Shown here: in pieces, positions 24,583 through 28,288 of the stretch
Layout: every line of letters starts with the position of its first letter
How positions within the stretch are numbered: position 1 is the first letter of the stretch
Assembly: GCA_021158405.1 (NCBI GenBank)
Contig: JAGGUP010000147.1
Coordinates: 1 to 55,190, forward strand
Direction of reading: 5' to 3'
Source: Bacteroidales bacterium
GTDB lineage: Bacteria; Bacteroidota; Bacteroidia; Bacteroidales; UBA12170
DNA: 55,190 nt
Notes under the pieces: generated by a model
The model's database searches: none
Seen by the model: the letters and a program-made list of their open reading frames with translations, nothing else
What the model was told of the DNA's origin: nothing
Position numbers and translations under genes: made by a program

Positions 24583-26367
24583 TCAATAATGATTCCTCTT
24601 TTTATAGCTCGTATGTAATAGGCGATGCGATACTTCTCCAAGTGGTTCTTTCAAAAATTCTTTATAAATCTTAATAATTTCCGGATTTTTGTGAGATTTC
24701 CGCACAGGCATATTCATATCCTCTTCGTAAATTGCTTCGGCCCTTTTCTTACGAATTTCATCATTCGTTGGGATGGGTTGTCCACCACCTCCGATGCATC
24801 CACCCGGGCAAGCCATCACTTCTATAAAATGATATGGAGATTTTCCGGCAGCAACCTGATCCATTATTTTTCGTGCATTTATCAATCCATGAGCTACCGC
24901 TACTTTTAGTTCTACACCTTCTAAGAAGCTCCAATCCGGCAAACAATTTTCCAGCTTTATTGCCGCTTCTTTTATTCCTTCCATTCCTCTAACAGGTAAA
25001 ATATTCAAATTATCAAAAGGAACATCTCTACCTGTAACCAACTCATAAGCAGTTCTCAGTGCAGCTTCCATAACGCCTCCGGTAGCACCAAAAATAGCAC
25101 CTGCTCCAGTCGATTCTCCCATAATACTATCAAATTCACTATCTTCCAGTTCGGCAAAATTTAAACCTGCCTGATTGATCATATGACCTAATTCTCGAGT
25201 GGTAAGCCCTGCATCAATATCTCGATAGCCGCTATCATTCATTTCTGGACGATTTGCCTCAAATTTCTTCGCCGCACAAGGCATAATTGAAATACTGACA
25301 ATATCTTTAGGATCGATTCCTTTTTTCTCCGCATAATACGTTTTTGACAAAGCGCCAAACATTTGCTGAGGAGATTTACACGTGGACAAATGTCCTAAAT
25401 GTTCAGGAAAGATATGCTCGATAAATTTTACCCATCCGGGTGAACAGGAAGTAATCATCGGAAGTTTTATAGAAGTATCATTTTCTACTAGTGCTTTTCT
25501 TAGCCTTTGCAAAAGCTCGTAACCTTCTTCAACAATGGTTAAGTCGGCTGAAAAATCTGTATCTAACACGGAATCAACGCCTAAACGCTTCAATGAGGTA
25601 ACCATTTTTCCAGTCACACGAGATCCAACAGGATAGCCTAGCATTTCACCGATTGCCACTCGCACAGAAGGAGCTGTATTTATTACCACATGTTTTTTCT
25701 CATTTCCAATAGCTTCCCAAACACGATCGAAATAACGTCTTTCGGTAAGAGCTCCTGTAGGACAATGAATAACGCATTGTCCACAATTGGTACAAATAGC
25801 TTCATTCAAAGGCAGATCCATAAAGGTAGAAATTTTCATATCTTTTCCTTTACCACTTACGGTAAGTGCATTCACATGCTGAAGTTCGGCACAAGTTCGA
25901 ACACAGCGCTGACAACGAACACATTTACTATCGTCTTTTTCTATCGACCAAGAAGAACGATCAATTTCAATATTTGGCTTTAAAACACTTAAATAGCGAT
26001 TGTTATCAATATTGTATTCGGCCGAAAGCGCTTGTAATTCGCAATTCATGCTTCGGTAACAAGTGGTACATTGCGTATTGTGTTCCGAAACCAAAAGCGC
26101 AACTATATCCTTTCTAGCATTGCGGACTTTAGGCGTATTGGTCTTAACAACCATGCCGTCTTCGGCAGGCACAGCACAGGAAGCTGAAAGGGTTTTACTT
26201 CCTTCTACTTCAACTACACAAACACGACAATTACCAGCAACACATAAATCCTCGTGATGACAAAGTGTTGGAATTCGAACATTGACTTTTTTTGCAGCAT
26301 CCAAAATGGTTTGACCCTTTTCTATGGATACTTTTTTATTATCTATGGTTAAATTTATTATTGACAT
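24583..26367 (-). CDS. hndD: [FeFe]-hydrogenase catalytic subunit, HndD/HydA-type
   Basis: [2Fe-2S] CHHEDLCVAGNCRVC; His-type HNTQCTTCYRSMNCELQ; CVRCQRCVRTC and CTNCGQCVIHCPTGAL; H-cluster motifs TSCSPGW, MPCAAKKFE, EVMACPGGCIGGGGQP; C-terminal small-subunit region. Confidence 0.96.
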   Translation of the reverse strand: MSIINLTIDNKKVSIEKGQTILDAAKKVNVRIPTLCHHEDLCVAGNCRVCVVEVEGSKTLSASCAVPAEDGMVVKTNTPKVRNARKDIVALLVSEHNTQCTTCYRSMNCELQALSAEYNIDNNRYLSVLKPNIEIDRSSWSIEKDDSKCVRCQRCVRTCAELQHVNALTVSGKGKDMKISTFMDLPLNEAICTNCGQCVIHCPTGALTERRYFDRVWEAIGNEKKHVVINTAPSVRVAIGEMLGYPVGSRVTGKMVTSLKRLGVDSVLDTDFSADLTIVEEGYELLQRLRKALVENDTSIKLPMITSCSPGWVKFIEHIFPEHLGHLSTCKSPQQMFGALSKTYYAEKKGIDPKDIVSISIMPCAAKKFEANRPEMNDSGYRDIDAGLTTRELGHMINQAGLNFAELEDSEFDSIMGESTGAGAIFGATGGVMEAALRTAYELVTGRDVPFDNLNILPVRGMEGIKEAAIKLENCLPDWSFLEGVELKVAVAHGLINARKIMDQVAAGKSPYHFIEVMACPGGCIGGGGQPIPTNDEIRKKRAEAIYEEDMNMPVRKSHKNPEIIKIYKEFLKEPLGEVSHRLLHTSYKKRNHY

Positions 26368-27553: not shown

Positions 27554-28033
27554 CTAAAAATCAGTTAAATGTTTAGGGTCTAAATCACGTATAATATCAA
27601 TCGCTTTTTCGGGAGTTATTTCAGAATAAACATCATCGTTAACAAGCATAACTGGCCCTTTATGACACCAACCCAAACAATTGCTTTCTATTAAAGTAAA
27701 TTGTTTATCACGCGTAGTTTCTCCCATTTTTATTTTTAGAAGTTTTTCAATTGCTTGCACAATCTTTTGTTTACCCGACATTTTACAGCTAATTGTTTTA
27801 CAAACTCTGATGACATTTTTACCCACAGGCTTAGTAAATAAATAGGAATAAAAAGAAGCAGTTCCATATACTTCTGCTGAAGACAAATCGAGTGCTTTTG
27901 CTACTTCTACCATAGCTTTCTCTGTGAGATAATTTTCATCGGCCACAACCCCTTGCAATATAGGAAGCAAGTTATTTCTTGAACACCCATGTTTGTCAAC
28001 AAGTTCTTTCACCAAATTTTTTGTTTGAATCAT
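27554..28033 (-). CDS. hndA: NuoE-like [2Fe-2S] hydrogenase subunit (HydC/HndA-type)
   Basis: VRVCKTISCKMSGKQKIVQAIEKLLKIKMGETTRDKQFTLIESNCLGWCHKGPVMLVNDDVYSEITPEKAIDII. Confidence 0.92.
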   Translation of the reverse strand: MIQTKNLVKELVDKHGCSRNNLLPILQGVVADENYLTEKAMVEVAKALDLSSAEVYGTASFYSYLFTKPVGKNVIRVCKTISCKMSGKQKIVQAIEKLLKIKMGETTRDKQFTLIESNCLGWCHKGPVMLVNDDVYSEITPEKAIDIIRDLDPKHLTDF

Positions 28034-28046
28034 GATAAAATATTTA

Positions 28047-28064
28047 TTGTTATTTAATTAACAA
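28047..28064. promoter_or_regulatory. Rex-like operator 1 upstream of the hydrogenase operon
   Basis: TTGTTATTTAATTAACAA; one mismatch from TTGTTAANNNNTTAACAA; overlaps putative minus-strand TATCTTTG promoter element. Confidence 0.75.
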
Positions 28065-28077
28065 AGATATTGATATA

Positions 28078-28095
28078 TTGTTATATAATTAACAA
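28078..28095. promoter_or_regulatory. Rex-like operator 2 upstream of the hydrogenase operon
   Basis: TTGTTATATAATTAACAA; 31 bp from operator 1, same single mismatch. Confidence 0.75.
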
Positions 28096-28288
28096 TAAAC
28101 TATTTCGAAATAGAAATTTATAGTCATTCTAAATAACAAACTCCCATATATCACTGCTATATTGCTATTTACAAAAATATTAATTTCCTATTTAGAATCT
28201 TACTTTATCAGAAAAAGACAAAATAACAAACAGATTACTCCAAAAATTATTCGAACATAATTTTCTATAAATAGAGGAAAATAAATGA

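Follow-up and report, generated by a model that had tools for sequence, protein, structure and literature searches.

The control of hydrogenase genes by the NADH/NAD+-sensing repressor Rex is already known from Firmicutes and has been predicted in Caldithrix. In Thermotoga maritima, Rex control of hydrogen-production genes has reportedly been shown in vitro. For Caldicellulosiruptor bescii, Rex binding was published at the FeFe-hydrogenase and hydG promoters (PMC6391272), in Thermoanaerobacterium saccharolyticum TTGTTAAnnnnTTAACAA-type sites were predicted at hfsABCD, hydG, and ech, with two at adhE (PMC5886521), and the [FeFe]-hydrogenase operon to which rex is linked in Caldithrix abyssi carries a candidate Rex site (PMC5317091). 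No characterised Rex from Bacteroidota was found in the literature, which is weak evidence given that the literature was only partially covered. Within this phylum, a Fur box (ATTTAGAATTATTCTAAAT) was described in Riemerella anatipestifer, where EMSA showed binding of Fur to fragments carrying the box (PMC5609570). In the window (i.e., the whole stretch of 55,190 nucleotides that was analyzed here, part of a Bacteroidales draft genome), the operon hydCBA is preceded by two palindromes, which on comparative sequence evidence are very probably tandem operators for Rex at the hydCBA promoter, with repression that would be relieved by NADH.

The hydCBA operon and its predicted operator pair

The genes hydC, hydB, and hydA form a closely spaced series on the minus strand (Table 1). 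HydA scored 871 bits against the family 'NADH-dependent [FeFe] hydrogenase, group A6' (cutoff 765), while HydB consists of the NuoF core only and reads T/K when aligned with the A232/M234 position of Thermotoga maritima HydB. A threonine or serine in place of A/E at HydB 232 and the lack of M at 234 were reported for non-bifurcating NADH-dependent beta subunits (PMC7311640), a signature that the window HydB carries; TFK was present in 73 of 79 named orthologous loci. The hydrogenase is thus predicted to take electrons from NADH alone and is probably ferredoxin-independent, so that the enzyme and its predicted repressor would both respond to NADH.

Table 1 Features of the hydCBA locus (positions in the window)
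Feature	Position	Strand	Remarks
hydA, [FeFe]-hydrogenase catalytic subunit	24583..26367	-	NCBIfam NF040763
hydB, NuoF-like flavin subunit, 388 aa	26385..27551	-	without extra Fe-S domains; PGTFK non-bifurcating signature
hydC, NuoE-like, thioredoxin-like [2Fe-2S] subunit	27554..28033	-	first gene of the operon
Proximal Rex operator (predicted), TTGTTAATTAAATAACAA	28047..28064	-	overlaps the -7 element and the expected transcription start
Bacteroidota-type -7 promoter element, TATCTTTG	28062..28069	-	TTG doubles as the first three bases of the proximal operator
Distal Rex operator (predicted), TTGTTAATTATATAACAA	28078..28095	-	covers the -33 region
Fur-type box, ATTTAGAATGACTATAAAT, 19 bp	28116..28134	-	2 mismatches to ATTTAGAATNATTCTAAAT; fixed distance upstream of the distal operator

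Two perfect TTGTTA-N6-TAACAA palindromes of 18 bp are located upstream of hydCBA with a centre-to-centre distance of 31 bp (plus-strand letters TTGTTATTTAATTAACAA for the proximal and TTGTTATATAATTAACAA for the distal one), and these were the sole matches to TTGTTANNNNNNTAACAA at zero or one mismatch in the 55-kb window. Both matched the Rex-operator palindrome TTGTKAA-N4-TTMACAA at 13 of 14 positions (i.e., within the one to two mismatches accepted). An earlier note on this DNA had given exactly these letters and coordinates, and its further statements were borne out as well: each site is one base off TTGTTAANNNNTTAACAA, and the proximal site overlaps the -7 element on the minus strand, where CAAAGATA of the plus strand reads TATCTTTG and three bases are common to both. 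The predicted occlusion of the -33 and -7 regions by Rex follows from this geometry.

The whole 2.94-Mb draft genome was searched with the motif, using the reversed motif as control. The perfect motif occurred at four places, two of them being the hydC pair, vs. two for the control; given this genomic density, the probability of encountering another perfect site within 40 bp is ~1e-4, and two sites never occurred together when the intergenic region (560 bp) was dinucleotide-shuffled 20,000 times. With one mismatch allowed, no genome-wide enrichment was observed (36 matches vs. 54 for the control), and matches with two mismatches, as well as those to the composite promoter-operator pattern, were also no commoner than their reversed controls genome-wide. 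Motif matching alone can therefore not identify the regulon, and independent evidence was sought; the case is built on pairing, position, and conservation. Genomic matches that lacked conservation are not claimed as Rex sites, as their counts did not exceed those of the reversed controls, and 13 of the 36 sites with up to one mismatch were dropped for being intragenic.

Other predicted targets and a Fur-type box

The earlier note had expected a genome scan to return promoters such as those of adhE, ldh, and pta; these three were absent among the genomic sites with up to one mismatch and bulk enrichment was lacking, but hydE, hydG, mutA, rex, and a second hydrogenase-type cluster were recovered. 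The maturase genes hydE and hydG (identified by TIGR03956 and TIGR03955, respectively) are preceded by fused promoter-operator elements that recur in congeners (TACCTTTGTGAATAATTTAACAA, with zero mismatches, and TATCTTTGTGAATTGATTAACAG). A Rex-type site is located 86 bp upstream of mutA, the gene for the small subunit of methylmalonyl-CoA mutase, and in the genus eight of nine mutA loci have such a site together with an adjacent Fur-type box, the ninth (G008) being unjudged as its automatic start call falls inside the gene. Two Rex-like sites are also carried by a second NuoE/NuoF hydrogenase-type cluster on contig C145. The Rex wiring appears to cover the maturation genes and a gene of the propionate pathway as well.

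The locus on C145 (L274, G000:C145; 1725-1742, 3691-3708, and 4457-6892) encodes a second NuoE, a long NuoF of 648 aa with extra ferredoxin-type domains, and response regulators, and the contig stops before any HydA. On C15, a motif match adjoins the gene for a methylmalonyl-CoA decarboxylase alpha subunit, and on C71 another lies in the vicinity of a proline dehydrogenase gene.

The Fur-type box upstream of the operator pair (16 of 18 positions matching the 19-bp ATTTAGAATNATTCTAAAT palindrome) had been overlooked by the earlier note, whose interpretation was otherwise largely supported. It was 90% conserved in an alignment of ten promoters (nine of them from the genus, counting the own genome, and the tenth from a different family), and boxes with at least 13 of 18 matching positions were present upstream of hydC in 63 of the 79 named loci, starting in clusters 74-76 or ~64 bp upstream of the start of the -7 element. 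Genome-wide, seven matches were found vs. one for the control, also near rnfB, 2-oxoacid dehydrogenase genes, and sucA, and the genome has two Fur-family genes. A Fur-type regulator, acting at this candidate box ~40–50 bp further upstream, is probably a second input to hydCBA. The frequency and fixed distances of the box, its recurrence near rnfB, 2-oxoacid dehydrogenase genes, and mutA, and the two encoded Fur-family proteins would also fit a hydrogenase mainly controlled by iron through this box, with Rex as a minor modulator. We consider this unlikely, as the promoter core is covered by the Rex sites and not by the Fur-type box, and hydE, hydG, and rex carry Rex sites, while the regions upstream of hydE and hydG in the own genome yielded no good Fur-type box. 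Joint control by Rex and a Fur-type regulator is compatible with the Rex explanation.

The Fur-type boxes on contigs C18, C28, C52, and C141 of G000 (L109, L112, L113, and L115) have 2-oxoacid dehydrogenase genes, sucA, and rnfB in their neighbourhoods, and not iron-uptake genes. A second conserved element was observed ~65 bp upstream of the box at hydC (~28185-28198; minus strand TTCTAAATAGGAA, TTCTAAATAAGGAA-like in most congeners); it may represent another box or a half-box.

The rex gene and conservation of the sites in relatives

The earlier note saw no rex in the window and proposed looking for it elsewhere; the genome encodes one clear homologue on another contig (C35:41044-41664, minus strand, 207 aa). 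The protein exceeded the cutoffs of PF06971 (48 bits, cutoff 27), NF003995 (196, cutoff 126), NF003996 (187, cutoff 138), and NF003994, aligned over nearly its full length with the Bacillus Rex 2vt2 (E-value 3e-38), and combines a winged-helix N-terminus with an NAD(H)-binding Rossmann domain, in which the GxGNxG loop reads GAGNLG and the AFD..P.KIG motif is present. Its own promoter carries the same operator fused to a -7 element (TAACTTTGTTTGTTAATTAACAA, ~12 bp ahead of the ATG), a predicted autoregulatory site; congeners have a similar element at rex.

The sites also go together with rex across relatives. The region upstream of hydC could be read in 29 relatives, and a site (at least 12 of 14 matching positions; 1.7% expected by chance per sequence) was found in 21 of 22 with a close rex vs. 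none of 7 without (Fisher p = 5e-6). In 50 genomes of the named set, a close rex was present in 31 of 33 with a site (one being a partial match at a contig edge, G094) vs. 7 of 17 without (Fisher p = 9e-5), p-values that overstate independence as the compared genomes are kin. The exceptions, i.e., two genomes that bear the site and have no obvious rex orthologue (G099 and G100) and the seven named loci with rex and no strong site, are possibly due to assembly gaps, weaker sites with 17-bp spacing, or another regulator. In another family (G023), hydC, a long hydB, hydA, an [FeFe]-hydrogenase/histidine-kinase fusion, a response regulator, and a hybrid kinase are followed by rex (L272, G023:C68, 1287-9606), an arrangement in which Rex shares a gene cluster with a putative sensory hydrogenase; in G058 the order is the same as judged by gene size only.

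A second, distant Rex-like group (~30% identity) was observed in G012, G035, G039, and other relatives, sometimes alone, and genomes with only this group mostly lacked hydC sites. It was set aside as a partner of these sites, since it does not go with them.

CRP/FNR-family regulators recognise half-sites that resemble TTGTTA/TTGTGA, and an FNR- or HcpR-like protein could in principle bind the palindromes instead of Rex, all the more as two perfect or near-perfect genomic matches adjoin CRP/FNR-type genes. We regard this as very improbable, given that the rex promoter is itself overlapped by this operator and the presence of the site tracks rex; moreover, sister families have rex in physical clusters with hydrogenase genes. 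The two matches in question lie between CRP/FNR-type regulator genes and an SQR-like (G000:C163:20427-20444) or DsrE-like gene (C52:20342-20359), and may belong to the adjoining regulators.

Sites with at least 12 of 14 matching positions were present in 62 of the 79 named Bacteroidales loci, 22 of which had two or more, and in some relatives two abutting sites 17 bp apart are found instead. Relative to the start of TAnnTTTG, site starts fell at -28/-27 (34 cases), +5 (10 cases), and +15 to +18 (26 cases), clusters that correspond to one predicted operator that covers the -33 region and a second located at the -7 element or immediately beyond it; as the positions are locked to this element across the order, they support the proposed hydC promoter. 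In the ten-promoter alignment, half-site columns had a mean identity of 95% vs. 61% for the flanks (Mann-Whitney p = 5e-12). That the sites are functionless palindromes of an AT-rich intergenic region, as the lack of enrichment of relaxed matches might suggest, is already contradicted by this conservation and by positions locked to the -7 box in dozens of genomes, as well as by the improbable pairing and the shuffles without doubles, and has a negligible probability.

Predicted regulation and comparison with known systems

Rex binding, its release by NADH, and the direction of regulation, with induction at a high NADH/NAD+ ratio, are what we infer from established Rex biochemistry, and for the direction and ligand also from the work on Rex at C. 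bescii hydrogenase genes and the predictions for T. saccharolyticum and Caldithrix abyssi. At low NADH/NAD+, two Rex dimers would occupy one face of the DNA at a distance of about three helical turns, one over the -33 region and the other over the -7/start region, and RNA polymerase would be kept off. When NADH rises, Rex would take it up and leave the DNA, and the derepressed cell would produce the [FeFe]-hydrogenase, which is predicted to depend on NADH and probably not on ferredoxin, along with its maturases (HydE and HydG) and additional Rex, whereby electrons could be disposed of as H2. More tentatively, there may be a small Rex regulon throughout the Bacteroidales (hydCBA, hydE, hydG, and methylmalonyl-CoA mutase). 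Fusion of the operator with the phylum-specific -7 element would be frequent in this regulon, and hydCBA and mutA would have a Fur-type box in addition, at a fixed distance, so that one promoter could read both NADH/NAD+ and iron.

Such regulation would yield a rule, open to testing, on the conditions under which Bacteroidales produce H2 and perhaps propionate. This is of importance in sediments, digesters, and guts, where they cross-feed with hydrogen consumers. The Rex control of hydrogenase, mainly described in Firmicutes, would be extended to Bacteroidota, where the composite signature TAnnTTTGTKAA-N4-TTMACAA can serve as a search pattern, and the pairing of an NADH-sensing repressor with an enzyme predicted to use NADH alone would form a simple closed feedback loop.

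The locus resembles that of C. bescii (PMC6391272) in the Rex family, the 18-bp operator, the coverage of structural and maturation genes, and rex autoregulation, while C. bescii is a Firmicute with the general TTGTGAA consensus; the window differs by its tandem sites, by the additional Fur-type box, and by the fusion of the operator with a TAnnTTTG promoter of Bacteroidota. The sites in T. saccharolyticum (PMC5886521) are of a similar type; however, alcohol dehydrogenase genes are the main targets there and none was among the best sites here. Caldithrix abyssi (PMC5317091) shares the link between rex and the hydrogenase operon, but has a single site, an enzyme described as bifurcating, and rex as the first gene of the operon. 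As far as known from its sequence, the window enzyme is similar to the non-bifurcating Hyd1ABC of Syntrophomonas wolfei (PMC5626996, PMC7311640), a trimeric HydABC with a NuoF-like beta subunit and T/S at the position of Thermotoga HydB A232. The 19-bp palindrome of R. anatipestifer (PMC5609570), from the same phylum, matches the upstream box of the window, but its targets include iron-uptake genes, whereas here the boxes are at hydrogenase and central redox genes. In kind, the system is ordinary, and its place as a Bacteroidales member of the Rex-hydrogenase regulon is strongly supported; the less ordinary features are the promoter-fused tandem operator and the conserved Fur-type box.
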